Shown in pieces: positions 21,816 through 39,800 of a stretch of DNA of 41,471 bases. Under the pieces are notes generated by a model. It searched no databases. It was not told the origin of the DNA and saw only the letters and a program-made list of their open reading frames with translations. The position numbers and the translations under genes were made by a program. How positions within the stretch are numbered: position 1 is the first letter of the stretch; every line of letters starts with the position of its first letter. The DNA comes from Candidatus Parcubacteria bacterium (GTDB lineage Bacteria > Patescibacteriota > Minisyncoccia > JAHIHE01 > JAGLIN01): contig JAGLXN010000042.1 in the NCBI GenBank assembly GCA_023132875.1, positions 1 to 41,471 of the forward strand, written 5' to 3'.

Positions 21816-21950
21816 ATTTTTTAAAAAATAGGTTTAATAGTAAATTTTAGAGAATAGTTTAATTATTATTTTCCTAATATTTTACAAATAACTTTATGTT
21901 TTCTTCTGTTTCTGGATGCTTAAATATATAAAACAAGCATAATAAAAAAT

Positions 21951-21986
21951 ATAGACACTTTCTCACGACCGTGAGAAAGTGCCTAT
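21951..21986 (-). terminator. Strong hairpin, likely terminator of the minus-strand cluster
   Basis: atagacactttctcac / gtgagaaagtgcctat with loop gacc; one mismatch in 16 pairs. On the minus strand it is followed by atattttttatt, the form of an intrinsic terminator, about 220 bases after the last gene of the cluster. It may equally be a member of a palindromic repeat family. Confidence 0.6.
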
Positions 21987-22204
21987 ATTTCTTATTTCTT
22001 GTTTTTTTATATGAGATATTTAAAATTTAGGATTAATTATAAATTTGATTAATTTTTTGTCTAAAGTATACCCTAAATTAAGATTTTCGCGCTCTAGAAT
22101 TTGCTATTAAGAAAAAATAGAGCGATCATCCCAAAATTAATTCATTGTGTAGAATTTAATATTTGCCTATAGAAATTTTGATTAGAATCTTCCGCGCGCG
22201 AAGG

Positions 22205-23479
22205 CTATTTTATTTCGCGCTTAATATCTCTAATTTCTTTCTCTACGATTTTTTCAGAATCTCTTAAAATTTTAAACACACTATCCCTTATTTTTCTTTC
22301 TCCAACGCTTAAACCAGGTTTGGAATCAAAGTACTCAATTTTCTTTTCTAAATCATTGCGCAGCTCCTTAAAAGTTTTTTTCAAGCTTAACTCAGCCTCT
22401 TTTGTTTCTTTCCAGATTTTCTCTCTTTCTTTTCTCATTTTACAGCAAACACAAACTGTTACAGACAAAAATATTATAACCAGTAAGGCCAGAATTAAGA
22501 TTAAGCTTCCATAATCAATTAACAAAGATCCAATGGTAATTCCATTTAAAGACACCTCTACTTCATATTCTTTAGACAAATCACTTACCGCTCCTCTTGA
22601 ATCTTCAGTTGTCGCGGAAATCGCATAAATGCCGTTTGGGAAAAGCTCATCAGAATAAAACGACCATGAACCTTCCTCATCGCTTGTGGTTTCCCATATC
22701 TTTATTAAATTATTATCTTGCCTAAAGGAAATAACAATAATAGAATTTGGCAAAGCCTTTCCTCCAATGTATAAAATTTCATCTCCGGCATTATATATTC
22801 CAGGATGAACTGAAATTTCGGGAGACGGAATTGATTTAATATTTACGTCAGCAGAAGCTTCTTTTTTGTTTCCAGCTTTATCTACGGCTAAAATCGTTAT
22901 TTTATGCGATCCGAAAGACTGAAGAGGCATTACAAATGGATTTATTTCTCCAGGAACAACCAAAGAGGTTTCTTTATTGTCAATTTTTATTCTATAATGG
23001 CTTATACCCGACAAGTCATCTTCTGCTTCAAAATACAATAGCGGTTTTGGCGATGTCGGATCACCTTCGTTATCAACTTTTATATTAAAATTATCAGGAA
23101 CTTTTCTGTCAATTTGAATTTTAAAATGTGAAACACTGCTCCATCCAGACTTATTTTGCGTTCTCAAATGGAAATACCATATCCCGCTTCCTATATACTC
23201 ATAACTTTTTGAGTAAAAAACTCCTTCTGAAATAAAATCAGGAGTAGTTGTTGGATTATTGTTAAATTCAACGCTTGCTCCGATAATTTCGGTTGAATTT
23301 TTCCAGCTAAAAATCGCGCTTTGATTACTATACCAATCATTCTGATTTGGATTTGTCGGAGAGGATATTTCAGCCGTAGCTGTGATATCTTCACTTTTAG
23401 CAAAAACGCCATAAATCTGAACCTTTTCAAAGGTTATAAGCAGTAATGCGGTTATAATTATAAATAAAATTTTTCTCAT
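22205..23479 (-). CDS. Membrane-anchored surface protein, Ig-like domains, no cohesin, long cytoplasmic tail
   Basis: 424 residues. A signal helix is followed by a segment also present in the two cohesin neighbours ('SPTNPNQNDWYSNQSAIFSW', 'GIWYFHLRTQNKSGWSSVSH', about 38-115), then Ig-like domains ('PLLYFEAEDDLSGISHYRIK', 'KITILAVDKAGNKKEASADV'). A third domain ('YIGGKALPNSIIVISF') resembles repeats in the dockerin protein. A membrane helix at about 322-346 leads to a 78-residue basic/acidic tail predicted as helical ('TKEAELSLKKTFKELRNDLE'), which would lie in the cytoplasm. It has the layout of its neighbours but lacks the cohesin. It is the last gene of the cluster, 24 bases after the previous one. 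It could link the surface assembly to something inside the cell, but that is speculation. Confidence 0.7.
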   Translation of the reverse strand: MRKILFIIITALLLITFEKVQIYGVFAKSEDITATAEISSPTNPNQNDWYSNQSAIFSWKNSTEIIGASVEFNNNPTTTPDFISEGVFYSKSYEYIGSGIWYFHLRTQNKSGWSSVSHFKIQIDRKVPDNFNIKVDNEGDPTSPKPLLYFEAEDDLSGISHYRIKIDNKETSLVVPGEINPFVMPLQSFGSHKITILAVDKAGNKKEASADVNIKSIPSPEISVHPGIYNAGDEILYIGGKALPNSIIVISFRQDNNLIKIWETTSDEEGSWSFYSDELFPNGIYAISATTEDSRGAVSDLSKEYEVEVSLNGITIGSLLIDYGSLILILALLVIIFLSVTVCVCCKMRKEREKIWKETKEAELSLKKTFKELRNDLEKKIEYFDSKPGLSVGERKIRDSVFKILRDSEKIVEKEIRDIKREIK

Positions 23480-23503
23480 ACCGAAAATAAATTAATTTTA
23501 TAT

Positions 23504-24784
23504 TTATTGTCTCCTTGATTTCTCAAGATTTCTTCTTATAATTTGTTCTCTTTCTCTTAATTTGCTCGCAAACTGTATTTTGCACTCTCTTTCTCTTTGC
23601 CATAAAATTATTAATATTGAAAGGACTGAAATTATCAAAATGAGAAACGCCAGAAGAATAGGCCACCATGATAAAAAAACGCCTTCCAGCCATACGCCTC
23701 TTTCCGTAATTAATATTTTCTCTGGAGCGATTTCAATTTCTATAGATTCTTTTTGCCAATTTCCAGCATTGTCATACGCTCTTACAATTACAAGATATTT
23801 GCCGATTCCAAGAATGGGGAGTTGATATGGGCTAGCGGTTTCAATAAAAAAAGCCTCCCTTTTATTCTTATGTTCAGCGGTTATATCAACAGTCTTTACT
23901 TCATAATGGTCTATTTTAGAAAAAGCATCAGTTGTGATAAAAGAAACAATTGGCTGCGAAAAGCTTGTTTTTGTTGAAGGACTAACTTCTATTTTAAAAG
24001 ACGCGGGACTATCATTGTCAATTCTAGCCAAATAATGGCTTATTCCTCCCCAGTTATTTTCTTTTTTCGCTTTTATATGAAAATACCAAATTCCGTCTTT
24101 CAAATTTGAAAAAGAAACAGAAGATTTATTTCCTTTAGATTCATTATCCGGAATTCCCTGAGGATTAGTATCTAAAACATAACTAAAATCTGAAACTGTG
24201 TCTTCTTTATTCCATGAAAAAGCAACATTATTATTTTTGTACCATTTATTTTGGTCAGGGTGGGTAGAAGATGAAACAATTGGTCCTTCAGGAAGAGGAA
24301 GAGAAATGATATATTTTCCACTTCCCGTGAAATTTAGGATCTCGGTGGCTTTTCCGTCATCAAGAAGAACTTTTGAAGTGTCAAGAAAGTAAAGCGTAGT
24401 TTCTCCAGGTTCTATAGCCCTAAAGGTTATGGTTAAAGCTGAACCGGAGGATGTATTTACTCCTGGAGAAGGAATACCCCCTCTAAAAGATATTTTTCCT
24501 TCTAAATTTGAATAAGAAGGAGAAGTAACCCAAATAGAAATAAATGATTTTCCTGTTACAGGACTTACAACTTGTATTTTTTTTGGATCAAATTTCAAAT
24601 CTGCGCTTATGGCGTTAACATTATTTCCCCCGGTATTAAGAATTATTGAAACATCGAAAGTGCTTCCAGCATAAAAAGTTCCGCTATTTGGAGATAAATA
24701 CAAAGAAGCTCCCGATGCTTTTGCTATCGGTGTTGTTAAAAAAAATAATATTAGAAATATGAAAACAAAACCCCCTTTTTTCAT
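23504..24784 (-). CDS. Membrane-anchored cohesin-domain surface protein
   Basis: 426 residues. A signal peptide ends near 'TTPIAKASG'. Residues about 27-160 form a cohesin-type domain: 'SLYLSPNSGTFYAGSTFDV', 'AISADLKFDPKKIQVVSPVT', 'GKISFRGGIPSPGVNTSSGS' and 'LTITFRAIEPGETTLYFLD'. Next comes the shared 'HPDQNKWYKNNNVAFSW' to 'GIWYFHIKAKKENNWGGISH' segment and Ig-like domains ending 'IVRAYDNAGNWQKES'. A membrane helix (about 373-395) and a 31-residue basic tail follow. Cohesins bind dockerins, and the only dockerin visible is two genes upstream in the same cluster. The protein should sit in the membrane with the cohesin outside. Binding is inferred and untested. Confidence 0.82.
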   Translation of the reverse strand: MKKGGFVFIFLILFFLTTPIAKASGASLYLSPNSGTFYAGSTFDVSIILNTGGNNVNAISADLKFDPKKIQVVSPVTGKSFISIWVTSPSYSNLEGKISFRGGIPSPGVNTSSGSALTITFRAIEPGETTLYFLDTSKVLLDDGKATEILNFTGSGKYIISLPLPEGPIVSSSTHPDQNKWYKNNNVAFSWNKEDTVSDFSYVLDTNPQGIPDNESKGNKSSVSFSNLKDGIWYFHIKAKKENNWGGISHYLARIDNDSPASFKIEVSPSTKTSFSQPIVSFITTDAFSKIDHYEVKTVDITAEHKNKREAFFIETASPYQLPILGIGKYLVIVRAYDNAGNWQKESIEIEIAPEKILITERGVWLEGVFLSWWPILLAFLILIISVLSILIILWQRERECKIQFASKLREREQIIRRNLEKSRRQ

Positions 24785-24794
24785 TTTTTTGTTT

Positions 24795-25970
24795 TTATTT
24801 TTTATGATTTTCTTCTTTGTCGCGAGATTTTCTCCAAAAAATTATCCAGATTATTAAAATTATAACCGTTGTTCCGATTAAGATCCAAAAAGTTATTTGA
24901 CTTGGAAAAAATTTTGGTTTGGAGGGTAAAATAACTTCAGATAATCTTTCATTGCCGGCTTTATCATTAGCTTTTACTTTTATAATACTTTTTAAACTCT
25001 GGTCTTTAAGCAGATAAGGACTTTTTGCAATCTCCCATTTTGTTTCTTGCTTTGGTTTGATATTTCCAAGCCAGTTTAAACCGGTTTCTGACACTTTATA
25101 ATAGTCTATACCTGAAGCTGCGTCTGTGGTAGCAAAAACTAAATATTTCATTCCCTCAATATCTATAATTTGAGGCGTGAATTCTTTCGGACTTGTAGTA
25201 TCTACCATTGTTCTGACTGTAATTTTAGGAGACCATTTTTCGTCAGGCAATTTTTGTTTTAAATGGAAATAATAAATGTCGTCTTTCAGTTCTTCATAGC
25301 TCATACTGCCCATCCAAACAAGTTCTCCTTTCGGCCTATCCGGGATTTCATCCGGCTCTGCTAAAGGGTCTTTGCTTAGAATATAGCTATAATCTGCTTC
25401 ATCAACTAAATCCCAGTGCAGGCTGAAAGTGTCATTATTACTCCACTTATTTTCGTCTGGATTGGATTTAGATTCAATTTTTATAAAACTATCTGATTTT
25501 TCCACTATATTGTAGCTGTTGTCTAAAATGCTTATTTCGTCTTCTGTCGCCATGCCGTCATTGAGCAGTGTTTTTGTATCAGACAAGCTTAGTTTACAGC
25601 TACCCGTTTTTTTTGCTTTGAAAATTATTTTTAAAATTATGCCATTTCCGCTGTAGCCGCCCGGGATTCCTCCTGTAAATTCAATACTTCCATTTTTATT
25701 TGAAATAACAGGTTCGCCCATCCAAAGTTCTATTACAGAGTCTCCCGTAATTACATCAATTACTTCTAAAGCATTCTGATCAAAATTTATTTTTGCCTCA
25801 AGTGTGTTTATTTTTTGGTCTTTAGTGTCTATATGTAAACTTTTGATAAATGTATCTGATTCTTGGTACTCCGCGCTTTGAGGCATAAAAAACAAAGTAG
25901 AAGCGTTGCTCGTAAAAGGAGCTGCTGTAAAAAAGAAAAGAAACATCGCAATGAAAGATATTTTTCTCAT
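24795..25970 (-). CDS. Second membrane-anchored cohesin-domain surface protein
   Basis: 391 residues, with the same plan as its downstream neighbour. After a signal peptide, residues about 25-155 form a diverged cohesin-like domain: 'LFFMPQSAEYQESDTF', 'NTLEAKINFDQNALEVIDVI', 'NGSIEFTGGIPGGYSGNG' and 'IILKIIFKAKKTGSCKLSLS'. The shared segment reads 'NPDENKWSNNDTFSLHWDL' and 'DDIYYFHLKQKLPDEKWSP'. An Ig-like part with 'VKANDKAGNERLSEV', a membrane helix (about 358-378) and a short charged tail end the protein. The ten-base gap to the next gene indicates co-transcription. The divergence of the two cohesins suggests different dockerin partners or affinities. The cohesin call is by motif and less certain than for the neighbour. 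Confidence 0.78.
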   Translation of the reverse strand: MRKISFIAMFLFFFTAAPFTSNASTLFFMPQSAEYQESDTFIKSLHIDTKDQKINTLEAKINFDQNALEVIDVITGDSVIELWMGEPVISNKNGSIEFTGGIPGGYSGNGIILKIIFKAKKTGSCKLSLSDTKTLLNDGMATEDEISILDNSYNIVEKSDSFIKIESKSNPDENKWSNNDTFSLHWDLVDEADYSYILSKDPLAEPDEIPDRPKGELVWMGSMSYEELKDDIYYFHLKQKLPDEKWSPKITVRTMVDTTSPKEFTPQIIDIEGMKYLVFATTDAASGIDYYKVSETGLNWLGNIKPKQETKWEIAKSPYLLKDQSLKSIIKVKANDKAGNERLSEVILPSKPKFFPSQITFWILIGTTVIILIIWIIFWRKSRDKEENHKK

Positions 25971-26072
25971 TGTTTTACCGTTAATAATTTTGTGTTCTTG
26001 TTTATATTATACAAAGCTTAGTTGTTTTTTACAAGTTTTTTTTATTGTATAGGAATTGAATATTTGTTCTTC

Positions 26073-26192
26073 TGTCATTCTGGAGTGATAGCGGTAGAAT
26101 CTCGAAACTACGCGCATAGAATTGTTCTATTACACTATGCGAAACTAAAATTGAGATCCTATCGTTCCGTTTCACTGTACTCCAGGATGACA
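26073..26192. repeat. TGTCATT-type inverted-repeat element within the surface cluster
   Basis: tgtcattctggagtgatagcg at the left and actccaggatgaca at the right are complementary over tgtcattctggagt / actccaggatgaca with one mismatch. It also contains ctacgcgcatag and ctatgcgaaact arms. It lies in the 293-base gap between the dockerin gene and the first cohesin gene. Confidence 0.75.
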
Positions 26193-26263
26193 ATCCAATA
26201 TGTGCTAAATACTACCATACTAGACACTATTCAAGAATAAAAACTTTAGTGTATTTTAGACCG

Positions 26264-27658
26264 CTAATCTGTCCAATAATACATCATAATACTGAAATCA
26301 TAGATATCAACAATTCCATCCTGATTTATGTCGGCGCAGCGGTTAGACGGATTTTTTGATTTCCAATAATGCATAAGAATACTGAAATCTAAAATATCAA
26401 CCTTTGAATCATTATTCAGATCAACTCCGTTGCATTCTCCCGGCGGAACGGGCGGGTCCGGAGGTTTTGGAATAATCGGTTTTTTAGTAATGTCGAAACT
26501 TAATTCCATGCTATATTCGCTTTGCTCTCCTCCTATAAAAATGGTTTTTGCTTTTGTGAAATATTCTCCCGCGGCGTAATCCGTGCTGTTAAAAAAATAT
26601 GCCCAATGCCCGTTTTCGTCAGAATTTAAACTCGTTGCCTTGAAAGACGGTGATATGAAATTAACTATCAAGCTGTCGGGATAAGAGCTTCCGTGTATTT
26701 TCAGAGAATCTCCCCGGCGAATCGTGTTTGACGATAAAGCTATGGTTGGAGGAATGTATATATTATTAATTTCCGTTATCTGATTAGCATTGATGCTTAA
26801 ATTATAATTAAGAGTAGGGGATAACAATCCAAGATCGTCCTGCGCGAAAATACCGAAGCTATAAATTTTATTGGATGGTATGCTCTTTATGGTCATTTCG
26901 AAATTCCCGCTATTATCAGCTGTTTGCGTACCTGCGGCTTGTCCGTCTTTTAAAATAGTCATAAACGCGTTCGGATAAGCTTTTCCGGTCATTTTTAAAT
27001 TTCCTGTTCGCGGGATTATTATTCCGCTACCGCCACCTCCTCCGGGAGAAGTGCTTCCTATTGTTATTGACACGGACGTTCCTGATGAGGGCAGCGTTAT
27101 AATAACTGTTCTTCCCGTATCTCCAAAAGTACCGGCTATGTCTATAAAATAACTGTTTCCAGCAGAGGGGTTCCTAATTTGATTTGCTCCCAATCCTCCA
27201 AAGACCGCGTTTGTTCCGATCTCAATCCTGATATCCGAGTTTACCGCGATAGTGTTTCCGGCGCAGGCCGTAAATGTAATTTCATCTTCAATGTCATTTA
27301 CGCTTACTGTCAGGTCGTCATTATCTACACAAACGCCAACTATATCATAATCTATTCCATCTGCCGAGAGATCATAATCCGTAATACTGACAGGGTTAAG
27401 CTGTGATAGATCAAACGCGTTCCCGGTATCATCAAATTTTATTACAACGGTATCAGTCGGATCTATTGAACTGACGGTCCGAAAAGCAATTAAGTGGTTT
27501 GCGGAAATGCCGGATCTTGAATCAGAAATCGTATCGCTTATATTGGAAACGGGAGCAGCTTTTATATTTTTACTATCAAAAAAAGGGACTGAACATTGCC
27601 CCGCTAACGCGACTATTATAAATATAAAAAAAGCTTTTGCTAATTTACCATTTTTCAT
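26264..27658 (-). CDS. Secreted dockerin-bearing surface protein
   Basis: 464 residues with a signal peptide and no C-terminal membrane helix. The N-terminal domain starts 'ISDSRSGISANHLIAFRT', a motif shared with the 28715-29830 product. A Gly-rich hinge ('SPGGGGGSGIIIP') separates it from two Ig-like repeats ('GKAYPNAFMTILKDGQAAGT', 'IHGSSYPDSLIVNF'), followed by a Pro-rich linker ('PIIPKPPDPPVPPG'). Residues about 409-464 are a type I-like dockerin: two calcium-loop repeats, 'DLNNDSKVDILDFSILMHYW' and 'DINQDGIVDIYDFSIMMYYW', each with the Asp/Asn positions of the F-hand loop. It should be exported and held at the surface by the anchored cohesins encoded downstream. No catalytic domain is visible, so it is not a cellulosome enzyme. 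It may be a structural or adhesive subunit. Confidence 0.87.
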   Translation of the reverse strand: MKNGKLAKAFFIFIIVALAGQCSVPFFDSKNIKAAPVSNISDTISDSRSGISANHLIAFRTVSSIDPTDTVVIKFDDTGNAFDLSQLNPVSITDYDLSADGIDYDIVGVCVDNDDLTVSVNDIEDEITFTACAGNTIAVNSDIRIEIGTNAVFGGLGANQIRNPSAGNSYFIDIAGTFGDTGRTVIITLPSSGTSVSITIGSTSPGGGGGSGIIIPRTGNLKMTGKAYPNAFMTILKDGQAAGTQTADNSGNFEMTIKSIPSNKIYSFGIFAQDDLGLLSPTLNYNLSINANQITEINNIYIPPTIALSSNTIRRGDSLKIHGSSYPDSLIVNFISPSFKATSLNSDENGHWAYFFNSTDYAAGEYFTKAKTIFIGGEQSEYSMELSFDITKKPIIPKPPDPPVPPGECNGVDLNNDSKVDILDFSILMHYWKSKNPSNRCADINQDGIVDIYDFSIMMYYWTD

Positions 27659-27706
27659 TGTTACAAATATAAAATTACGTGATTTTTGATTATTTTTAAA
27701 CTTTTT

Positions 27707-28675
27707 TTAAGAGTCTTTTCTCGTCGCATGATGTTCGCCCTTAAGTAAAATCTTTGCAGCCATTCTCAGTCGTTTTCTACTTAAGAATAATATTATCAAA
27801 ATTATCGCCAAAACAATAAAAACCGCAAGCATTAGTTTCCACGGCAAAACCCAAAACTCAATTGTCATTGGATTTATGGGAATATTCGATGTGCCATATC
27901 CGCCGACAATTGTAGCAGTATATTTTCCAAAAAGCCATTTTGTATCCCAGTTTGTTTCAATTTTTCTAACAGCTCCTGGCATAACATTATTTAAAGGTAA
28001 TTCCAAGTCAATTTCTTTTTTATTTCCCCAGCTAGATATTGATATAAATCCCCTTGGTTTAACATGAATAGATCCTTTATTTTCAAATTTTATTTCAAAG
28101 GGTACCGGTCCATATTCTAAAAAAGATGGTGTTGAAAAACTTTTAATTTCAAGATTCTCTTTTACTTCGCCAGATACTACTAACAAAACCAAAGACCCTA
28201 CTTGTTGAACCACGCTTGTTCCCATGCCTCCAGTTGCATTTTCTCCGCCTATACTTGCCAGGATTGAGCCATATTTTCCTCCCGGCTCAGCGTTTAAAGG
28301 AACTTCTATCATAAAATCAACAACTTTTTGTTCATTTGGTCCCAATATAAACTCATTTGCTTCTGCCTTCATCCAATTTTTTAAAGAATAAATCATTTCT
28401 TCTTCTACTGGCGCGATTATTACTTGTCCAATCTCCCCAACTGCCTTAAAATTTTCAATATTTATTGTTACGGGAGTGACATTATCAGACATATTAATAA
28501 TTCTAAGCTTATTCTTCAGGACATCACCCGGGTTTGCGGTCAAATCAAAAGTCAAAGGAGATATCATAATTCCTCTTTTTTGCTCTTGAGCACTGCTAGC
28601 AGGAGCCAAAACCAACCCGGCTCCCGCTAAAATTGCGAAAGATATAACAAACGCAAGATATTTATTTTTTTTCAT
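27707..28675 (-). CDS. DUF916/WxLIP-like membrane-anchored surface protein
   Basis: 322 residues. The signal peptide ends near 'LAPASSAQ'. Residues about 33-145 resemble the DUF916 (WxL-interacting protein, N-terminal) fold: 'GIMISPLTFDLTANPGDV', 'LRIINMSDNVTPVTINIENF', 'FILGPNEQKVVDFMIEVP' and 'EPGGKYGSILAS'. A second beta domain follows ('EIKFENKGSIHVKPRGFISI'), then a C-terminal membrane helix after 'EFWVLPWKLML' and a basic tail. In Firmicutes such proteins anchor WxL-domain surface proteins. Here a paralog lies at 30202-31293 with a small secreted protein in between. I infer an anchoring or assembly role for this surface cluster, without direct evidence. Confidence 0.75.
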   Translation of the reverse strand: MKKNKYLAFVISFAILAGAGLVLAPASSAQEQKRGIMISPLTFDLTANPGDVLKNKLRIINMSDNVTPVTINIENFKAVGEIGQVIIAPVEEEMIYSLKNWMKAEANEFILGPNEQKVVDFMIEVPLNAEPGGKYGSILASIGGENATGGMGTSVVQQVGSLVLLVVSGEVKENLEIKSFSTPSFLEYGPVPFEIKFENKGSIHVKPRGFISISSWGNKKEIDLELPLNNVMPGAVRKIETNWDTKWLFGKYTATIVGGYGTSNIPINPMTIEFWVLPWKLMLAVFIVLAIILIILFLSRKRLRMAAKILLKGEHHATRKDS

Positions 28676-28714
28676 TTATTTTAAGTAATTCAAATACAAC
28701 TATTTTCACGAATG

Positions 28715-29830
28715 TTAATAAGTCGGGGTAACAACATAAACTATCTGGCCAGTATATGTTCCGGCGGGTTGAGATGCGGAAACGCTAATTTTATACTGTA
28801 TCCTGCTAACGTTACCATCAACCTCTGCGGCGTCTGTCATTATAGTTTGAGGAGTTTCGGCTCCACTACTGACATCACATTGAGCGTCTGTTCCCGTGCA
28901 AGCGTATTGTCTATATTCAGTATTGGCAGTAAATACACAATCATCACCAGTGATATCTACACACCCATATGCGACACCATTCTTAGTAGAGTCTGCCCAT
29001 GTATCAGTAGTTGATTCTGTCATTTGAGGGGTATCGCCAGTGGAATCGTCAATTGTGTCAGTACTGTACATCAGGTTAGTTGTTTCTTGCGCGGTAACGA
29101 AGTACCCATTTGTAGCATTTGTCCCCACCGTTAAGTCTTGGCAAGCATGATAGAAGGTATCAGGAACAATTGTATCTATAAAAGTTATTGCGGTAGCAGA
29201 GCTATCCGGACCGTCTAAAGTGGAGAAAGAAGCATCACAGGCAGCATTAGTAACGCCGTCAATAGCAAAGCTAAGCGTTTCGTCTACGGTTACGGTAACA
29301 GTTACATCAGAAATTATATAGAAAGCGGTTACTGCCGTAGAAATTTCGCTAGAGCAATCGTTTACTGCATAAGTAGTAATCCGCCCAAAGTATACGCCTA
29401 CTCCCGATGGATTTGTAACGGCCCCAAAAACCACTGAATCGTCAGTGCCTGTCGGCGATGCGGTAGTAGCATGAGTAAGTTTTGCCGTATTGGCGTCAAC
29501 GGAAGCTTCTGTCCAGTCGTTATAAACGAGACCCGCCCAATCAGCGCTTTCGCCCTTGTCCAAACCAACCGTAGTCAGTCCAGCAGGAGCATTGCAGGTT
29601 CCACTTGCAGTAGTGCAATATTTAATTTGAATGCATCCGGTTGCCGAAGCATCCAAATCTGCTTCAAGGTCATGATCAGCGGTTTGAGAAGCTCGGGAGT
29701 CAGAAAGCTTGAGTTCTTCTTCTGATATAGCAGCATTTGTTTTTGTAGTCACTGAGTAGGAAAACACCAGCGTGATCATACAGACAAATGCTATAATCTT
29801 CTTACTTATCTTTTTTATTTTTTGTGCCAT
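28715..29830 (-). CDS. Small secreted Thr/Asp-rich surface protein
   Basis: Not assigned to a named family. 371 residues with a signal peptide ('IIAFVCMITLVFSYSVTTKT') and no membrane anchor. It begins with 'LSDSRASQTADHDLEADL', which matches the N-terminal motif of the dockerin protein. The body is rich in Thr, Asp and Ala with scattered Cys pairs ('KYCTTASGTCNAP', 'ACTGTDAQCDVSSG'), and it ends in a strand-like 'SASQPAGTYTGQIVYVVTP' as in secreted beta-sandwich subunits. Its place between two DUF916-like anchored proteins parallels WxL protein/WxL-interacting protein loci, but no Trp-x-Leu motif is present. It is probably an abundant surface or fibre subunit. Start and length are well supported. 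Confidence 0.7.
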   Translation of the reverse strand: MAQKIKKISKKIIAFVCMITLVFSYSVTTKTNAAISEEELKLSDSRASQTADHDLEADLDASATGCIQIKYCTTASGTCNAPAGLTTVGLDKGESADWAGLVYNDWTEASVDANTAKLTHATTASPTGTDDSVVFGAVTNPSGVGVYFGRITTYAVNDCSSEISTAVTAFYIISDVTVTVTVDETLSFAIDGVTNAACDASFSTLDGPDSSATAITFIDTIVPDTFYHACQDLTVGTNATNGYFVTAQETTNLMYSTDTIDDSTGDTPQMTESTTDTWADSTKNGVAYGCVDITGDDCVFTANTEYRQYACTGTDAQCDVSSGAETPQTIMTDAAEVDGNVSRIQYKISVSASQPAGTYTGQIVYVVTPTY

Positions 29831-30201
29831 AGTTTTATGTTAGTTTATAAATTTTAAATAAATATATATAAAAAAAGTTAATAATTTTTAATTTATGATA
29901 TTTTTTTAATTTCTAGCTTTATTTATATTTGTAATTAATTTTTATTCGACCTTTTTATGTTTTATGAATCAAAGATTAAATTATGAGATGCCATTTTTCG
30001 CTTCTTGTCATTTCGAACGAAGAGATGTCTTTTGTCATTTCGAATCCCGATAGGGTGAGAAATCTAAGTGCGTAGAAGCAACTCAAATTTATAGATCTCT
30101 AAACCAGATCACAAATGATTCCAGAATAACAATCCTTAAACATATTTTAACACATTTTGGAATAAATAACAACAATATTACGCTTGTGGATAACTTTTTG
30201 C
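29831..30201. other. Intergenic region within the surface cluster
   Basis: No gene in 371 bases. A very AT-rich stretch (29831-29990) upstream of the 29830 start probably holds a minus-strand promoter. It is followed by a TGTCATT-type element (30006-30132). The gap suggests that the 30202-31293 gene and the rest may be separate transcripts. Confidence 0.6.
30006..30132. repeat. TGTCATT-type repeat element, degenerate
   Basis: It starts tgtcatttcgaacga and has a second tgtcatttcgaatcc 27 bases later (30033 onward); the right end is a degraded attccagaataaca. Internal agggtgagaaatct is the complement of agatttctcaccct in the element at 13240-13358. Confidence 0.6.
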
Positions 30202-31293
30202 TTATTTTTTTCTAATCAAAACCATTATCGCTTTTTTTATTCTTTTTCTCATAAGAATTATAACAATCATTATAAGAACAATTATAAGGAAGAATTTCCA
30301 TGGAAATACCCAAAATTCAATTTCTTCTTGCGTAGCTATGCCATCCGCATTAAGCATCAGACTGGCGTGATATTTTCCAAAGAATAAGTTTTTTGAGATA
30401 AAATCTGACAGGGGATCCGGCAGTTTTTGGACCGCTTCTGGAATTTCCGGATTGAATTCAACCGGAATCTTACGGCTTTTCCCCGGCAAAATTGTTGTTC
30501 TTGGAATTTCTGTTTCTCCTATTGTTTTATTATTGCCTGAATGAATCGCCAGTTTTCCGGACGGCTTGATATGATAGATATCATTATTTTTTATTAACAG
30601 ATTAAATTGAAGCTGGCTTGTTTCCACAATAGAAAACTGCTTTTCTTTTTTAGCCCGCGCGGAAGGAATTAATCCCATAATGTTTTTCAAAGAATCCTCA
30701 ATCTTTTTAAGATGGAACTTTTCCGGGATGTTGAATTCAGCGATTGCCATAGGTTCTGAACTTCTGTCAAGCCCGTCAATTTCTACCGAGAACAAAAATA
30801 TTGCTCCGATCTTTGGAATTGCTTTTGGCTGGCCTTTTTTAAAATAAGTAGGCGGCAATTGCGGTTCAAAGATAATTGTCGCGTAATATCCTCCGGGATT
30901 AATATCCTCCGGGATCTTTATGGAGAAATTAACTGCTTCAGTTTCTCCCGCGCTTAGTATAAAGTTCGGTTTTTCTATTTTTATCCAATTTTGCGGCTCG
31001 GAAGAAGAATCTTTCCCATGGTCATAAAAAAGCATATTCCCCGTTTCTTCTTCAGCTCCAAAGTTGATCGGCTTTGCTATTATTGGAATTGGAAAACTGC
31101 TCTGATTCAGGATGCGTATCTTTTCATTTATTATCTCGCCGCGTTTGACTTTCAGTTCCAGTGTGTGCGGCGCGATTTTAAGGCTTGGATTGATGATCTG
31201 CTGGGCGTTTGCCGAGGCAAATAAAATCAACAGCAATAAAAAAAACGGAAACATTTTTTTGCGATCAAATATTTTTTTAATGTTGTTTGCCAT
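30202..31293 (-). CDS. DUF916/WxLIP-like membrane-anchored surface protein, paralog
   Basis: 363 residues. The signal helix ('MFPFFLLLLILFASANAQ') is followed by the same fold as the 27707-28675 product: 'SLKIAPHTLELKVKRGEI', 'IRILNQSSFPIPIIAKPINF', 'FILSAGETEAVNFSIKIPED' and 'NPGGYYATIIFEP'. A second beta domain is interrupted by a longer basic loop near 'LIPSARAKKEKQF'. It ends 'EFWVFPWKFFLIIVLIMIV' plus a strongly basic tail ('RKRIKKAIMVLIRKK'). The matching EFWVxPWK motif before the membrane helix shows that the two are paralogs. It is the first gene of the minus-strand cluster and is divergent from the gene at 31607. Confidence 0.75.
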   Translation of the reverse strand: MANNIKKIFDRKKMFPFFLLLLILFASANAQQIINPSLKIAPHTLELKVKRGEIINEKIRILNQSSFPIPIIAKPINFGAEEETGNMLFYDHGKDSSSEPQNWIKIEKPNFILSAGETEAVNFSIKIPEDINPGGYYATIIFEPQLPPTYFKKGQPKAIPKIGAIFLFSVEIDGLDRSSEPMAIAEFNIPEKFHLKKIEDSLKNIMGLIPSARAKKEKQFSIVETSQLQFNLLIKNNDIYHIKPSGKLAIHSGNNKTIGETEIPRTTILPGKSRKIPVEFNPEIPEAVQKLPDPLSDFISKNLFFGKYHASLMLNADGIATQEEIEFWVFPWKFFLIIVLIMIVIILMRKRIKKAIMVLIRKK

Positions 31294-31606: not shown

Positions 31607-34198
31607 ATGAAAAGAAACAAAAAAACAGAAAAAAAAACGAGGATAATATATGACATTATACCGTCACGTCTTATGAAGGATATTGTTCTCGTTGAGAAAA
31701 AGATTTCTAGAACAACAAAGGCCTTTTATCTTTTCTTAAAAACCTCAAAATATGGTTCTGTTATTTTAGTTTTAGCCGTGGCCATTTTTGGAGGAGCAAT
31801 AATTATGGGATTTTCTCCTAAGACTGAAATAACAGAAATATATCCCGCGCAATATGAGGGAGATTGGCAGAATATGGAAAAGGCTTTAAATAGAGAACTC
31901 TCAGACAAGGCGGATATTTTAGAATTTAATTTTGATAATTCTGCAGGCGTTTTTAAGATTGAAGAAGAAGTTCTTTCTTTGCCAGAGGGGGAGACGGAAA
32001 AGGTGGAAGATATTGAATTAATAGAAGATATGGAAGAAGGGGTTCAGGCCGGAGACACTGAACCAATGGTCAGAGACATTGAACCGACAGATGATATAGA
32101 TCAAATAGAGGATAATCAAACCCCTCCCAATCTCCCCTTGTCAGGAGAGGAACCGGCGCAAGAGGGCTCCACACAGAGTATGGAGCCAGCAACAGGGCAG
32201 GATATGGAGCCAATGGAAGATATCAGTTTTTTTAAAAAAACAAAGGGACTGTTCTCTGTGCTTGAAGCTAGGGCGGAAGAAAGTATTGGCGATGAAAGCC
32301 AGATTAAAACAGAAAAAGCTGATAATGAAGAACTCGCTAATGACGGAGTGCCTGCGCAAAATGAAGATGTTGCAATTGAAGAAGTTCAAGATAATCAAGA
32401 TAGCGAAAAAGATTTGGATAAGAAAGAAATTGCGGATGATGATATAGATAGGAATAGTGAAAGCAAAGGAAACGGTAAAGAATCTTATAGTAATGATAGT
32501 TCCCCTAACGGGACTATGGAACCGTCAAAACAAGAAGGCTCCACGCAGAGTATGGAGCAAACAGATAAAGACGAAGAAACAGACAATGATATAGACGAAA
32601 ACGAACAGGACAAGAAAAAAAACGGGGAAGATAAAGAAGAAAAGTTTGAAGACTATGCAGGAATGATAATTATTCCTGATGTTGATGGAAATTTGCTTTT
32701 TGAAACCGAAGAAGATAAAAAGGAAGAAAAAGCTCAAACCATTTTTACCAAAGAATTAAACGCCGTTTATTCCGATTTTTCTATTCTGGAAGAAAAAGGA
32801 GAACTTAAGAAAATAAAGATTGGCTTTTCTTTTGCCAGTTTAGAAAAAGAAAACGAAAATGATGAAATTATTGTTTCATGGTCTTTGAACGGTGAAGACT
32901 GGAATAGCGCGTCAGAGTTTGTTCTGGATAAAAATTATTCCAACAAAGATAACGGCGGATATTTTTATACAGATATATTTGATTTGTCTGATTCTGATAA
33001 CGATACAATTTTACAGCGGGAAGATGTTGAAAATATCAAAGTAAAGTTTTCATATCTAACCAATAACAATGAAGAAAATTATGTCCCATTCTTTCTTGAC
33101 GCGGTCTGGCTGGAAACAGAGTCGGAAAAATTAGATGAAGAATCTGATGAGAAAGAAAAAATAGAAGTTTTATCGCATAAAAAAGATTTTAAAATTAACG
33201 AAGAGCCGGAGTTTAAATTTAAATATAAGAAAGAAAAGGAAGGGTTTTTAGTTTCAATCGGAGAAGCAATTGGAATTATTGATTATTGGAATGATATAAA
33301 TTTAACCGCTGAAATTATAGAACCGAATGGAGAAACTTTTAAAATTCCGTCTGAGGAATTCAGCAATTTTTCTGGAATTTTTACTTTGGGTGAAAACGGT
33401 GAGATTTTAATGAAGCTGAAAAAAGATAAAAAATTCAAACCCGGTCTTTATAAAATTATTTTAAAAATTGAAGAGAATGGAAATATTCAAACATTAGAAC
33501 AGGATTTTACTTGGGGAGTTTTGGCAATCAATGTAAACAAATCAATTTATTTGCCCGGCGAAGAAGCATATTTACAAATGGCAGTATTAAGAGATGACGG
33601 ACATACGATATGCAACGCGAGATTAGAATTAAGAATTTGGAATTTGGAATTTGGAATAGAAACTTTATTATCAACTGAGGACGAGACAATTCAGTATAGC
33701 GGGCAGTGCAGTGGAGATAATGTGACGGATGTTCCGGACTATTTTGCTTATTACACAACTAGCGAAGCGGGAGTTTATGAAATGACGCTTACTAATTTAG
33801 ATAACGGTTATGAAATAACGGATGACTTTGAAGTTCGCGATTTCGTTCCATTTGAAATTGAAAGAATCGGTCCAAGCAGAATTTATCCGCCAGCGGATTA
33901 TGAAATGGTTTTGAAGATTAAAGTGAATGAAGAATTTGTCGGATTTATTCAGGAGAAAACGCCAGCTTCATTTATAATTATTAAACAAGAATTACGAATC
34001 AAGAATCAAGAATCAGGAGAATTTGAAATTTATAATGGACAATTTATTACCCAAAACGAAAACGATAATATTAAATTGCTAAGATGGCATGACCTTAATT
34101 TGAAACAAAACGACGAACTTGAAATAAGATATGTGTTTGACGCGCCGGATGTCAGTCCTGATCTGCATTTGCTGGGACCGTTGGGATTTTATGAATAG
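31607..34198 (+). CDS. Membrane-anchored acidic surface protein, apparently truncated
   Basis: 863 residues. A basic N-terminus and one membrane helix (about 48-69) give an outside-facing C-terminus. An acidic low-complexity region (about 120-370, e.g. 'DKDEETDNDIDENEQDKKK') precedes beta-rich domains, including an MG2-like segment ('VNKSIYLPGEEAYLQMAVLR'). It ends 'LHLLGPLGFYE'. In related CPR proteins, as I recall, this point continues into 'EARQWQIASDA', and that string opens the gene product at 36826. The 3' part therefore seems lost or exchanged. Palindromic repeats at 32165-32187, 32499-32522 and 32537-32559 are read in frame (twice as 'GSTQSME'), and heptamer repeats give 'RIWNLEFGIE' and 'RIKNQES'. 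Function is unknown; an adhesin or surface-layer role is a guess. Confidence 0.7.
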   Translation: MKRNKKTEKKTRIIYDIIPSRLMKDIVLVEKKISRTTKAFYLFLKTSKYGSVILVLAVAIFGGAIIMGFSPKTEITEIYPAQYEGDWQNMEKALNRELSDKADILEFNFDNSAGVFKIEEEVLSLPEGETEKVEDIELIEDMEEGVQAGDTEPMVRDIEPTDDIDQIEDNQTPPNLPLSGEEPAQEGSTQSMEPATGQDMEPMEDISFFKKTKGLFSVLEARAEESIGDESQIKTEKADNEELANDGVPAQNEDVAIEEVQDNQDSEKDLDKKEIADDDIDRNSESKGNGKESYSNDSSPNGTMEPSKQEGSTQSMEQTDKDEETDNDIDENEQDKKKNGEDKEEKFEDYAGMIIIPDVDGNLLFETEEDKKEEKAQTIFTKELNAVYSDFSILEEKGELKKIKIGFSFASLEKENENDEIIVSWSLNGEDWNSASEFVLDKNYSNKDNGGYFYTDIFDLSDSDNDTILQREDVENIKVKFSYLTNNNEENYVPFFLDAVWLETESEKLDEESDEKEKIEVLSHKKDFKINEEPEFKFKYKKEKEGFLVSIGEAIGIIDYWNDINLTAEIIEPNGETFKIPSEEFSNFSGIFTLGENGEILMKLKKDKKFKPGLYKIILKIEENGNIQTLEQDFTWGVLAINVNKSIYLPGEEAYLQMAVLRDDGHTICNARLELRIWNLEFGIETLLSTEDETIQYSGQCSGDNVTDVPDYFAYYTTSEAGVYEMTLTNLDNGYEITDDFEVRDFVPFEIERIGPSRIYPPADYEMVLKIKVNEEFVGFIQEKTPASFIIIKQELRIKNQESGEFEIYNGQFITQNENDNIKLLRWHDLNLKQNDELEIRYVFDAPDVSPDLHLLGPLGFYE
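32165..32187. repeat. In-frame palindromic repeat
   Basis: It runs from ggctccacac to tatggagcc and differs from the intergenic copy at 136-158 at a single base of 23. It is read as 'GSTQSMEP'. Confidence 0.85.
32499..32559. repeat. Two further in-frame palindromic repeats
   Basis: gttcccctaacgggactatgg, completed by aac (32499-32522), is a variant of the stem type at 17814-17844. It is followed by a copy at 32537-32559 (ggctccacgc to tatggagca) with two differences from 32165-32187. The second is read as 'GSTQSMEQ' in the same frame as the first copy. Confidence 0.8.
33634..33654. repeat. Heptamer tandem repeat inside a coding sequence
   Basis: Three perfect copies of aatttgg, read as part of 'RIWNLEFGIE'. 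Confidence 0.8.
33994..34014. repeat. Heptamer tandem repeat inside a coding sequence
   Basis: acgaatc followed by two copies of aagaatc, read as 'RIKNQES'. The same peptide arises from the repeat at 316-350. Confidence 0.8.
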
Positions 34199-34246
34199 AA
34201 AGGGAAATTTCAAAATCCAAATTATTCCAAATGAAATCCAAAAAAG

Positions 34247-34621
34247 ATGATGGCAAATAATAACAAGAAAATTTACAATTTAGAAGAAAGAACGGCTTTG
34301 TTTGGCGAAAATATTATTGAATTTTGTAAAAGCATTAAGCAAAATAATATTAATAAATCAATACTCAATCAACTTATAAGATCGGGAACAAGTGTTGGAG
34401 CAAATTATTGTGAAGCTGGTGGAGCGAAATCTGGCAAAGACTTTAGACATAAAATAGCTATTTGTAAAAAGGAGGCTAAAGAAACAAAACACTGGTTAAG
34501 AATGCTAACAAAAACAAATCCAGAAAAATTAAGCGAGTGCCGAATATTATGGCAGGAAGAGCAAGAGCTAACATTAATTTTTTCATCTATTTTATTGCCT
34601 AAAAGTAAAAACAAGAAATAA
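34247..34621 (+). CDS. Four-helix-bundle protein (23S rRNA intervening-sequence protein family)
   Basis: 124 residues with the family pattern: 'LEERTALFGENIIEFCKSI', 'LNQLIRSGTSVGANYCEA' and 'SGKDFRHKIAICKKEAKET' followed by 'KHWLRML'. The protein is all helical, soluble and usually about 120 residues, as here. Members were first noticed in rRNA intervening sequences and are common free-standing genes in CPR genomes; one branch (Avd) serves diversity-generating retroelements, but no reverse transcriptase or template repeat is seen here. It sits between the truncated 31607 gene and the DUF2341 gene, behind a microrepeat-rich spacer, so it may have arrived with the rearrangement that cut the upstream gene. 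Molecular function is uncertain. Confidence 0.88.
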   Translation: MMANNNKKIYNLEERTALFGENIIEFCKSIKQNNINKSILNQLIRSGTSVGANYCEAGGAKSGKDFRHKIAICKKEAKETKHWLRMLTKTNPEKLSECRILWQEEQELTLIFSSILLPKSKNKK

Positions 34622-34839
34622 TTTTGACATTTGAATTTTAGATTTGATTTGGAACAATTTGAGCTTTGAACTTTGAAATCTAACCAAGCAGATTCAGGGA
34701 TAGATAGATTTTCAGAGATAGATAGATTGCTAATTTATCGTCCAAAACAATTTATATGATATTTAAATGTTTATTATTTTCTCAAAATATACAAAGGTCG
34801 ATTCGAGAAAATAAATATTAATTAATTAACAAAAAATTT

Positions 34840-36663
34840 ATGAAAAACAAAACAATGATAATAAAAACAATGATGTTTTTATTATTAATCTTAGGGGGAT
34901 CGGGACTATGTTTGTCGGATAATAAAGCGCGAGCCGCTGATTGGTACAGTCCGGATTGGGAATATAGAAAAGTGATCACTGTTGATAATACATCCAGCGC
35001 TGACGCTTTGACTGATTATCAAGTTTTAGTAACTCTAAACGCTGATAATTTTGATTATACTAAAGCAAACGCGAATGGATCTGATTTGAGATTTACCGAT
35101 TCGGACAAACTAACGGAAATTTCTTATTGGATTAAGGAGTGGAATACGGAAGGAGATTCAAAAATTTGGGTTAAAGTTCCGTCTATTCCAGCTGAAAGCA
35201 CAGCTACTATTTATCTTTATTACGGAAACGCGAGCGCGACTACTTCACTTAGTAGTTTTGACGACACGATGCAAAAACTGGAAGCGGACGCTGACACTGC
35301 CGGGCTTTGGCATTTTGATGAGGGAGAGGGAACAACACTTGGAGATTCTTCCATCAATGCAAATGATGGTGTGTTGAATAACTTCGCCGCGGATGGCATT
35401 GATTGGGTTGCGGATTCAGCTTCCGAGTACGATGGATCGGGCGGGGCTTTGAATTTTGACGGAGTTGATAATTATATTGAAGTGCTTGACAGCCCGAGTT
35501 TAAATTTTGTGGATGAAGATTTTTCAATTGAGGCCTGGATATATTCTAATTACAGAAACGGGACAGTTATTGCCAAATACATTACTGGCAGAGGTTATGT
35601 TCTTGACATTAACGATTGGCAAACTAATCTCGGCTTGGAAACTTCCGATGGAGAAGATTTTTTAGATAGTTACAGCAATCTCATTCAGTCCGGACAATGG
35701 CAGCATATCGCGGTAGTAAGAGATAATATAGATTTGATAAAATTTTATATCAACGGCGAGGAGAAAACCTTTTCAATTGAAATTAATGGAAATGTAAATG
35801 ATTTATATAACGAAGGTGTCAACTTAAAAATTGGAATGGGAGGATATACCCTTCCATTTAATGGTTTAATTGACGAATTAAGAATTTCCAGACGGGCTTT
35901 GAGCGCGGAAGAAATCAAAGCGAATTATGAAAGAAGGCAATATGCCGCGATAGAACCGATTAGTAGTTTAGGAGCTGAAGAAACTGATCCTTATGACGCT
36001 TCTGAAACTGTTGTTGCCGCGAACGGAGGAACAGTAACTAACACGGCTGATACAGCTGAAGTAACAATTCCGGCTAATGCTTTATCCGGCGATACAAATA
36101 TTACTATTGAGACTAATGAAGAAACCGGAAGCTTTCAAGTTCAGGGCGCGGAGCCGGTAGATTATATTTATAATTTTGGGCCGGAAGGAACTGAATTTTC
36201 CTCTCCGGTAACTTTAACTTTTAATTATGACGATACCGGGATGACTTTGGAGGAAGAAAATAGTTTGGATATCTATTATTACAATACAGGAACATCTTTA
36301 TGGGAATCGCAAGGAGCGACTGTGAATACGAACATTAATACGCTGAGTATCTCCGTGGATCATTTTTCAAGTTTTGTGATCGCTAAAGACTTAGTGTTGT
36401 TGGGAAAATTAAGCAAAATCAGTAAACTTTTGTTTTCAATTAATGATTATTCCGAAGGAGGACAAATTGAAAATTCCGGTTACTTCTTAATCGCGCATTT
36501 AAAAAGGGTGCAGAGACTGATAGCGGGTGGAGATAAAGAAAAAGCTATAACTGTCTTGGGAAAGTTTATTGAGAAAGTAGAAAGATTTACTCCAAGCAAA
36601 ATTAATGTAGATGCCTCAGCAGTGATTATTGATGAAACAGTTGAGATTATTGATTTGTTGTGA
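34840..36663 (+). CDS. Secreted DUF2341 + LamG + FIMAH-like surface protein
   Basis: 607 residues. A signal peptide precedes a DUF2341 domain (about 33-145: 'WEYRKVITVDNT', 'DYQVLVTLNADNFDY', 'IWVKVPSIPAESTATIYLYY'). A LamG/concanavalin-like domain follows at about 155-370 ('AGLWHFDEGEGTTLGDSS', 'LNFDGVDNYIEVLDSPSLNF', 'GQWQHIAVVRD', 'GLIDELRISRRALSAEEI'), then a ZU5-like sandwich ('GGTVTNTADTAEVTIPANAL'). The last 80 or so residues ('LIAHLKRVQRLIAGGDKEKA', 'FIEKVERFTPSKI') resemble the helical FIMAH domain of other surface proteins. No membrane anchor is seen. LamG and DUF2341 are often found on glycan- or protein-binding exported proteins, so adhesion is the likely role. It uses TGA as stop. 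Confidence 0.8.
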   Translation: MKNKTMIIKTMMFLLLILGGSGLCLSDNKARAADWYSPDWEYRKVITVDNTSSADALTDYQVLVTLNADNFDYTKANANGSDLRFTDSDKLTEISYWIKEWNTEGDSKIWVKVPSIPAESTATIYLYYGNASATTSLSSFDDTMQKLEADADTAGLWHFDEGEGTTLGDSSINANDGVLNNFAADGIDWVADSASEYDGSGGALNFDGVDNYIEVLDSPSLNFVDEDFSIEAWIYSNYRNGTVIAKYITGRGYVLDINDWQTNLGLETSDGEDFLDSYSNLIQSGQWQHIAVVRDNIDLIKFYINGEEKTFSIEINGNVNDLYNEGVNLKIGMGGYTLPFNGLIDELRISRRALSAEEIKANYERRQYAAIEPISSLGAEETDPYDASETVVAANGGTVTNTADTAEVTIPANALSGDTNITIETNEETGSFQVQGAEPVDYIYNFGPEGTEFSSPVTLTFNYDDTGMTLEEENSLDIYYYNTGTSLWESQGATVNTNINTLSISVDHFSSFVIAKDLVLLGKLSKISKLLFSINDYSEGGQIENSGYFLIAHLKRVQRLIAGGDKEKAITVLGKFIEKVERFTPSKINVDASAVIIDETVEIIDLL

Positions 36664-36674
36664 TAGTAATGTTT

Positions 36675-36702
36675 TCTCAGGATTTTTATAAAAGTCCTGA
36701 GA
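36675..36702 (+). terminator. Possible hairpin after the DUF2341/LamG gene
   Basis: tctcaggattttt pairs with aaaagtcctgaga with one mismatch, 12 bases after the stop. It is not followed by a clear T-run. Confidence 0.4.
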
Positions 36703-36745
36703 GGCAAGTTTCTAAAATTTTTGGAAATTTGCTTTTTGAAAGAAA

Positions 36746-36781
36746 GTTGGCTCCACAGCCCTTCGGGACTGTGGAGCCAAC
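36746..36781. repeat. Palindromic repeat, ggctcc/ggagcc family
   Basis: gttggctccacag and ctgtggagccaac form a 13-pair stem around cccttcggga. Nearly identical to the reverse complement of 17814-17844. It lies 45 bases before the giant gene. Confidence 0.85.
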
Positions 36782-36825
36782 AATTAACAGTCCACGACTT
36801 AATATAAAATTTGTAAATTATAACA

Positions 36826-39800
36826 ATGTCCTCTAATCTCAAAAAACTCATTATATCCCTCTCCATTTTGGCTTTCGCCGGCGGTTTTGTGTTGGCGGTG
36901 AATAGGTATAATACAAATTTGACAAGAGGAAATCAACCAAGATTGGTTTTTGAAGAAGCGCGCCAGTGGCAGATTGCGTCGGACGCGGTGGTTGACAAGG
37001 GCATTTTAGCTTACGCGGATACGGATAATGATGGCGTGCCGAAATTTCAGGAATACGAGAACAACATGTTTATCGGACAGGGAGGCGAAGTTTCCGGCCC
37101 TGCCAGCACCGCCAGCCCTATTCGTTTTTCTCGCATTGTCGCCGCTCCCACTCGGGACGAAAAAATGATCGGACATTTAAAAGACACTGGCCGTTTGGAT
37201 ATTGTCAAGTGCAGCGCTGTGGGTACTGGGGACACAACTAGTTGCAATGATATGACGACCGACAATGAAGACTTTGTCAACCAGTGGAACGTTACGGCTA
37301 TCGGAGCGATGGATTGCGATTCTTCGCCGACTCTTTGCGCTCAAGCTTTTGACATCGCTTATGAGCAGTTTAATGGGCGGGCGATGGTCGTTTACGCCAA
37401 TAATGTCGCCCAAAAGGTTTATTATTGCTATTATGATGGCTCCTCTTGGGGACCGGTTTCCAACTGCGCTCCCACCGATGGAACGAACAGTATAGATATG
37501 GGAACTATTGATGGCACGCCAAAATGGATTTCTCTCAAAGCCAGAGGCGCTCTTCTTACCGACACAAGAACAGACCAGCTCCTATTGACTGTTACCGCTG
37601 TTGATTCAAGTGATTATGTCGAAATGTATAATGCCATTTGGGACGGGAGCTCTTGGGGAAATAGCAGGGAAACGACTAGTGGACATACCGATAATTGTTC
37701 TGGCTACCGTTGCAGTGACGGAGCGTGGGAAGAAGTTTCAGGAAACGCTAGAATGGATTCTCTTGCTGGCAATCAAAAATACATTGCCGGCACTGGCTGG
37801 AGTTATTCTAATGGACCCGGAGAGCAGTGGATGAGGCTTGTTTCTTCTCCAATCAGCAATAGAATTGCCATGGATTGTACTAATGATGCCGATGATTTTC
37901 TTTCTTACATTTGGAAAGCGGATGGTTCAACCGCAGAATGGACAACGGGCGACAGCGACCCAGCAATTGAGGCTAAGGAAACTCAGAACAGCGATGTTGG
38001 CTGGGAAAGGTTTAATGACAACGCTGTGTTTTTGATGGGTGATTCTTCCAATACCTTTGATCCCCAGTATTCCAAGGCGACCTGCACCGGCTCCGGCTGC
38101 AATTTTGGCATAACAGTTATTACTACTCCACATACTACTAATGATGACGATTACAATGGTCCCACCGTCGCTGTTACGTCTCCCAACGCCAATAAAATAA
38201 TATATCTGCTGTCTGATATTGATTCCTACCTTCACGCTTATCGCTGGGATGGTTCAACTTGGACCTTGCCCGGAGATGGTGAGGAAACAGCGCTTCCTTT
38301 TGTGTCCCAAGGCAGTTCTACCGGCTCTGACAACATCCCCTTTGATTTTGCTTATACCCCTTATTCCCCGTGGTCGCGCAACTGGCGGTTTTATGACGAT
38401 GAAACATCAAATAATCCCACAATCGGCTTAAACAGCGCGGCGGAAAATGGAACACCGACAAATGTTGACCCGGAAGAACTTATTCGCTTGCGTATGCAAT
38501 TTACGGAATTGGGGGGTCAAGCGCAAACCGACGCTCGAAAAAAATTGCAATACACTTCCGGGTGCAATCCCAACACCTCGGAAACCGCTTGTACTTGGAC
38601 AGATGTGGGAGATGTTACCGAAACCAGCGCGGTTTGGCGCTTTGCTTCGCAGGCAAACGGCGATTCTGTTTGCGCAAACTGCAACGACAATACCGCTATC
38701 ACTTACGGGCTTACCGGCTCTACCCAGAACGGAACCTACATAACAGACAAAGACGCGGCGGCGGGCGCCAATATGGATCATAACGCTCTTGCTATAGCGG
38801 AATACGACTATCCCATTAAGGCGGAGAATGTGGCTGGAAACACTACTTATTATTTCCGGGCTTACGATGTTAGCCAGCAAAGCTCGGTTTTTCGCCGCCA
38901 AGACAGCGGCACAACCGATTGTTTAAGCTCCGCTTGCGCTTATCCGAGTTTGACAACGGCCCCCTTCATCACCGTCTCCGGCAATGTCTATATGGACGAA
39001 GGGTCAACCGCTTATGATTGTTCCGCTGACAACTTGACAATCGGCGTTTCGGTAAATGGCGGAACAACCGCGACTGGAACTTGCACTTTGAACACAGGCG
39101 CGTTTTCAGTTATGGTTTCCAGCAGTCCTTCGGCAGCCGGCGATCCGGTGGTCGTTTTTATAGACAGCGGGGAAACCCCCCGAGGCACGACTGTTACCCT
39201 TGCCGCCGATACCACTTCTAATATTACCGGTTTAAAAATCTATCAAGATCGGGTTATCGTTAGCAGTGAAAACGCCACCGCGGTAACCAACGCCAAAATG
39301 TCTACGGGGGATAACGCTGATGCCGGTATTCGTTACAATGTCGCGACTGGCGCGCTGACCACGGAAACTAATATGGAACTCCATGTTTTTACCGGTAAAA
39401 CCTATACTCCCGGCGGAACGGTAACTACTCAAGGAGCGGGAGGAAACTTGCATCTTGATGACAGCTCTACTGTCAACTTTGAAAGCAACGCGGGAACTAT
39501 TTCTGGAGATGTCGCTATTGACGCCAGCGCCACTCTCACCACGCCTTCTTCCGGCGCTTTCAATGTCGGCGGGTCATGGACTAACGCGGGAACTTTCACC
39601 CACAACTCCGGGACAACGACTTTTGGTTCGGGCTGGAGCTATAAAAAATCTCATGTCATTACAAATAATATCGCTTCGGAACTTACTGATTATCAAGTTA
39701 AGATTGTTGTTGATCCCGATACGGGCGATGATTCCGGAGCTACGGTTTATTGCGACGGCAAGTGCCAGACGGATTATGATGATATTAGGTTTACCGATTC

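Follow-up and report, generated by a model that had tools for sequence, protein, structure and literature searches.

A conserved cohesin-dockerin operon of Patescibacteria that resembles a pilus- or WxL-type surface locus

Little is known of the ways in which Patescibacteria assemble and attach the surface structures that serve them on other cells, and contact with other cells is something that CPR cells require. What, then, is the role of a cluster of exported proteins in such a cell that includes both cohesins and a dockerin? The window considered here is the whole 41,471-nucleotide stretch of DNA that was analysed, from a genome of 1.13 Mb with an estimated completeness of 100%. An earlier note on this DNA had suggested a system dedicated to surface assembly or attachment, and this proposal is supported by the identity of the cohesin and dockerin domains, by a conserved gene order and by the co-occurrence of the two domains across the phylum; a host cell may be its target. 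To us the locus looks like a pilus- or WxL-type locus that has been fitted with a cohesin-dockerin anchor.

Positions 22205-31293 are filled by seven open reading frames on the minus strand, running from g7 to g1 (Table 1) and separated, in that order, by 371, 39, 48, 293, 10 and 24 nt. All seven products begin with a hydrophobic export segment as judged by hydropathy (for g3, the signal helix is visible only in the AlphaFold2 model). A C-terminal transmembrane helix is present in g1, g2, g3, g5 and g7 and absent from g4 and g6, and Pfam and NCBIfam searches found no enzyme or carbohydrate-binding module families among the seven proteins. The earlier description of seven adjacent minus-strand genes for exported proteins, lacking any glycoside hydrolase or carbohydrate-binding module, is thus borne out. 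The gap between g4 and g3 (25971-26263) contains a repeat that recurs, as partial copies, at five further sites of the genome.

Table 1. Features of the locus and its surroundings, with positions in the window
Feature	Positions	Strand	Description
g1	22205..23479	-	Exported, with C-terminal TM helix; Y-type and Ig-like domains; charged cytoplasmic tail of ~74 residues; no cohesin
g2	23504..24784	-	Membrane-anchored by a C-terminal TM helix; cohesin at about 24332-24673
g3	24795..25970	-	Membrane-anchored by a C-terminal TM helix; cohesin at about 25530-25832
g4	26264..27658	-	Secreted; pilin-type N-domain (27050-27646), then a Gly-rich linker, a pair of Ig-like domains and, at the C-terminus, the dockerin (26279-26422)
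g5	27707..28675	-	WxLIP-like (DUF916-type), membrane-anchored
g6	28715..29830	-	Pam-type pilin-like, 371 aa; N-domain and C-domain (PILC about 28718-29173)
g7	30202..31293	-	Second WxLIP-like membrane-anchored protein
Probable terminator	21945..21992	-	20-pair stem-loop and T tail, ~213 nt beyond the g1 stop
863-aa protein	31607..34198	+	One N-terminal membrane segment (by inspection); 61% identity to L078:9398-11983
607-aa exported protein	34840..36663	+	DUF2341 and LamG (Laminin_G_3); homologue in the G001 run
Giant surface protein, N-terminal part	36826..41424	+	DUF2341; G001 homologue 2164 aa

The boundaries proposed earlier (22205-31293) do not hold, since the system extends into the plus-strand genes at 31607-41424, whose homologues form a single run with the operon in a relative, G001. 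There, one strand encodes in succession proteins of 861 aa and 634 aa, a giant protein of 2164 aa, and then g7, g6, g5, g4, g3, g2 and g1; the giant protein lies directly upstream of g7 and ends in a pilin C-domain. The window's homologues of the first three genes (61%, 56% and 73% identity, the last figure referring to the N-terminus of the giant protein) are on the opposite strand, so that the block of seven genes has the reverse orientation to that in G001. The giant gene of the window stops near the contig end without a pilin domain, and another contig of the same genome, C15, starts inside an open reading frame that matches the C-terminal part of the giant protein, pilin domain included; these are probably two parts of one gene. 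A small and a giant protein with a common C-terminal domain are found whole in G001 and in other relatives. The giant, pilin-tailed protein of one further locus (L085:1257-5636) carries a Fib_succ_major (FISUMP) domain, which indicates that the exposed domains differ among the giant adhesins. Elsewhere in the window, 4897-7713 and 8587-10563 encode large exported proteins in which beta-propeller-like repeats (LVIVD repeats in the former) are followed at the end by a T4SS_pilin-type membrane domain, an unusual fusion; the T4SS_pilin family PF18895 scores 41.9 bits in the former and 19.6 bits, below cut-off, in the latter.

The cohesin assignments proved sound. Both g2 and g3, which the earlier note had described as cohesin-type proteins with a C-terminal membrane anchor, exceed the Pfam cut-off of 24.1 bits for cohesin PF00963 (35.3 and 30.4 bits, respectively) and possess the expected transmembrane helix. 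Profiles were less informative when compared with PDB chains, the whole-protein cohesin profile giving no match at 1e-3 and the domain-only profile giving weak cohesin matches (best E 3e-4), and a structure model of g3 was therefore used instead. This AlphaFold2 model (mean pLDDT 91.7, alignment of 40 relatives) finds solved cohesins as its leading matches in Foldseek (6kge_A; E 1e-8, TM 0.77 on target, rmsd 2.5), in agreement with a cohesin fold. The description of g1 as a cohesin-less relative is also correct, but its cytoplasmic tail, at only about 74 residues, is not the long one that had been claimed. In relatives, the gene that closes the operon usually carries a cohesin, so that loss of this domain from g1 is likely.

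The dockerin of g4 is equally clear, and the expectation that this protein ends in a two-repeat dockerin is upheld by sequence. It scores 34.2 bits against Dockerin_1 PF00404 (cut-off 22.9), the family profile has the dockerin 2y3n_B as its best PDB match (E 6e-10), and calcium-loop positions 1, 3, 5, 9 and 12 are nearly invariant among 48 relatives; the Pfam score and the conserved ligand positions together identify two calcium-binding loops. No other dockerin was found in the genome, which holds two cohesins, one per protein, so that dockerin and cohesins are each other's only visible partners. These counts bear directly on the idea of a cellulosome-like assembly, in which cohesins would recruit dockerin-tagged hydrolases. 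The domain types are indeed those of the cellulosome; however, the genome's sole dockerin sits on a non-catalytic protein, no multi-cohesin scaffoldin was found in the genome and none of the seven proteins has an enzyme domain. We consider this idea extremely improbable and rejected it on the strength of that single dockerin, carried by a non-enzyme.

At its other end, g4 resembles a pilin. The profile of the g6 family matches its N-terminal domain (E 7e-24), which leads to the domain layout given in Table 1. In other lineages the core of two Ig domains and dockerin is kept, and the N-domain is changed or missing, most of these lineages having other spacers where it would be; a role as fibre subunit would accordingly not be general. 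Both g4 and g6 have a VSxSAxV strand before the linker, which under a strict definition occurs in 13/80 g4 proteins, 19/41 g6 proteins and 1/698 background open reading frames. A donor-strand mechanism is not claimed here, the strand being missing from most g4 proteins.

That the gene order is a local accident can be ruled out from its conservation in relatives, which answers the call for a search of CPR genomes for the same order. In four genomes of the same family (G001, G002, G005 and G007) the order g6-g5-g4-g3-(g2)-(g1) is kept as far as the contigs reach, and it is likewise kept in other families of the same class. An alignment of g4, used as the only query and with neighbour genes not part of it, retrieved 264 relatives from the GTDB species genomes, of which the best 80 were used; the names on the records of these 80 are those of Patescibacteria lineages or just uncultured 'bacterium'. 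Among the loci of these best 80 of 264, a cohesin gene lies immediately downstream of the dockerin gene in 66/77 and no more than six genes away in 74/77, most often as two cohesins, while a WxLIP-like gene is immediately upstream in 59/78 and a pilin-type gene within four genes upstream in 41/78, all of these counts being slightly inflated by a few loci that come from one genome or repeat loci fetched earlier. The same figures help to weigh a display system without any fibre, in which g4 would be a stand-alone adhesin held on its own cohesins, and the pilin and WxLIP-like proteins would form a WxL-like platform of their own that shares the operon with g4. A g4 N-terminus that is highly variable between species, as in an exposed adhesin or spacer, fits such a system, as do the 37/78 loci without a pilin gene within four upstream. 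The tight adjacency of WxLIP-like and dockerin genes and the pilin N-domain of g4 in its own family speak against it, and we think it rather unlikely.

Cohesin and dockerin also associate in the phylum at large. In 380 genomes taken evenly across Patescibacteria, cohesin was detected in 113 and dockerin in 152, and 77 genomes have both where 45 would be expected (odds ratio 5.5, p 5e-13, a value that is not that of independent events given the common ancestry of the surveyed genomes). The co-occurrence looked for in related genomes is therefore present, and among the strong matches listed the two domains lie within 10 kb of each other in 21/31 of the genomes having both. One genome (G191) has at least 15 dockerin matches, spread over several contigs, and no detected cohesin. 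Across 52 loci, dockerin distances track those of the adjacent cohesins (rho 0.48), compared with control correlations of 0.39 for the dockerin protein's own Ig domains and 0.22 for WxLIP; once both controls are accounted for, a partial dockerin-cohesin correlation of 0.35 remains (Mantel p 0.001). This co-variation fits a binding pair but is no proof of one. An alternative is that the cohesins bridge cells, capturing dockerin proteins that belong to a neighbouring cell or to the host. The need of CPR cells for contact with others would suit such bridging, as would the 36/113 cohesin-positive genomes in which no dockerin was detected, but the partner is encoded nearby in nearly all of the retrieved loci and the dockerin co-varies with the cohesin next to it. 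Bridging of this kind is improbable in our view.

The remaining genes connect the operon to a wider system. The earlier claim of two anchored DUF916-like proteins can be retained, although g5 and g7 are singly below the Pfam DUF916/WxLIP_PGBD cut-off of 27.3 bits (21.4 and 14.7 bits): the profile of g5-like proteins (60 members) matches the solved WxLIP of Enterococcus faecium (EfmWxLIP1; 9i25, 9i1y) over positions 38-263 with E 9e-7. This family profile, together with the transmembrane helix, agrees with the defining WxLIP architecture of DUF916, a second Ig domain and a transmembrane segment. The g5-like proteins occur in 169/380 Patescibacteria genomes and are only mildly associated with cohesin or dockerin, which makes the WxLIP-like part the wider of the two, with the cohesin-dockerin pair as an addition to it.

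The nature of g6 is less straightforward. It had been called a small secreted protein, and it is exported and has no transmembrane anchor, but at 371 aa and with its resemblance to CPR_Pam_pilin_C it is not merely small. Its own score against this NCBIfam model (NF058581) is 25.7 bits, below the cut-off of 55; in the g6-like family 37/45 members match the model and 12 match PamT, and at least one relative within a cohesin operon is above the cut-off (the giant protein of L130, 74.5 bits). The AlphaFold2 model of g6 has two beta-sandwich domains, for which the fold search returned no specific structural match, only generic beta-sandwich proteins at low TM. Assignment to the WxL family, as defined by a domain with dual Trp-x-Leu motifs, was rejected for the 45 g6-like proteins, none of which matches the WxL Pfam family; g6 itself has no Trp-x-Leu motif by inspection. 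These results also inform a third alternative, a WxL-type wall platform with no pilus, in which the C-domain of g6 and the giant protein would bind peptidoglycan, the WxLIP-like proteins would stabilise it and the cohesin-dockerin pair would tether the layer to the membrane. The match of the g5-like profile to a WxLIP structure and a layout of small, large and WxLIP proteins as in WxL clusters (PMC10599100) are in its favour, against which stand the missing WxL family and motif and the predominance of Pam pilin matches in the g6 family. This too appears fairly unlikely.

The reading that we favour, and to which we would give an even chance, is that of a surface adhesin system, pilus-like or WxL-like in kind, which is anchored in the membrane through cohesin and dockerin. 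The exposed part would consist of g6, as a small Pam-type pilin, and the giant adhesin with the same C-terminal domain, both held or assembled by the WxLIP-like membrane proteins g5 and g7. Secreted g4, carrying a pilin N-domain in its own branch, would act as adaptor, its calcium-loaded dockerin plugging into the membrane-anchored cohesins of g3 and g2 and so attaching the assembly to the cell with no sortase involved. Binding of g4 to the cohesins, its entry into a putative fibre and the use of that fibre for contact with another cell would all be features of such a system. In support are the identity of the two domains and their status as sole partners, the gene order, co-occurrence and co-variation, as well as the pilin N-domain of g4, the adjacency of pilin and g5-like genes in one relative (G337) and the lack of any sortase match in the own genome. 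Arguing against it are the sub-threshold pilin score and generic fold matches of g6, the absence of a PamR match from the own genome, and the 35/77 genomes with both cohesin and dockerin in which a g5-like match is missing. A more specific version is possible, though we would sooner bet against it: a reversible, calcium-dependent joint would replace the sortase linkage at the base of a pilus-type fibre, with a pilin-like subunit whose C-domain has been swapped for Ig-Ig-dockerin plugging into cohesin sockets.

A conserved operon with a defined lock-and-key pair offers a testable anchoring mechanism, which calcium chelation should disrupt. Such an anchor would add a sortase-free mode of fixing proteins to the cell surface, and cohesin-dockerin pairs gain a conserved non-enzymatic setting across a phylum.

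The component parts of the locus are known, and no published description of their combination was found; likewise, our search, in which preprints and most subscription journals were not covered, found no account of Pam pili or of CPR cohesin-dockerin operons. The cohesin and dockerin folds are the same as in the cellulosome, which differs in having dockerins on enzymes and a scaffoldin. Modules of both kinds beyond cellulose degradation are also found in the glycoside hydrolases of C. perfringens (e.g. PDB 2w1n). Dockerins are carried by giant proteins of Omnitrophota (PMC10066038), and ANME archaea have non-cellulosomal cohesin and dockerin proteins that were proposed to form surface complexes (PMC9012536, where the review of non-cellulosomal pairs by Peer et al. 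2009 is cited). The ANME sets are described as variable and include scaffoldin-like proteins (PMC9012536), whereas the Patescibacteria locus has one dockerin and at least two membrane-anchored cohesins in a fixed operon that also includes pilin-like and WxLIP-like genes. Sortase-anchored pili differ in the sortase itself, which was not detected in this genome. Firmicutes WxL clusters, made up of small WxL, large WxL and WxLIP proteins (PMC10599100), share with the locus the membrane WxLIP homologues and the small and giant proteins with a common C-terminal domain; they differ in the WxL domain that g6 lacks and in having no counterpart of the additional dockerin and cohesins. The CPR Pam system (NCBIfam NF058578 PamR, NF058579 PamT and the pilin model) is similar in that the g6 family matches its pilin, but full membership is ruled out for the window locus by the low g6 score and missing PamR, and cohesins and dockerin have been added. 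Neither cohesin nor dockerin genes are present at two further Pam-type loci (L074:7600-13500 and L075:7400-11700), which have pilin genes, then a WxLIP-like gene and, directly or one gene on, a PamR or PamR-like gene. In G337, whose Pam pilins and PamR score above their cut-offs, the pilin genes have g5-like genes directly after them, an arrangement that ties the WxL-cluster and Pam descriptions together.
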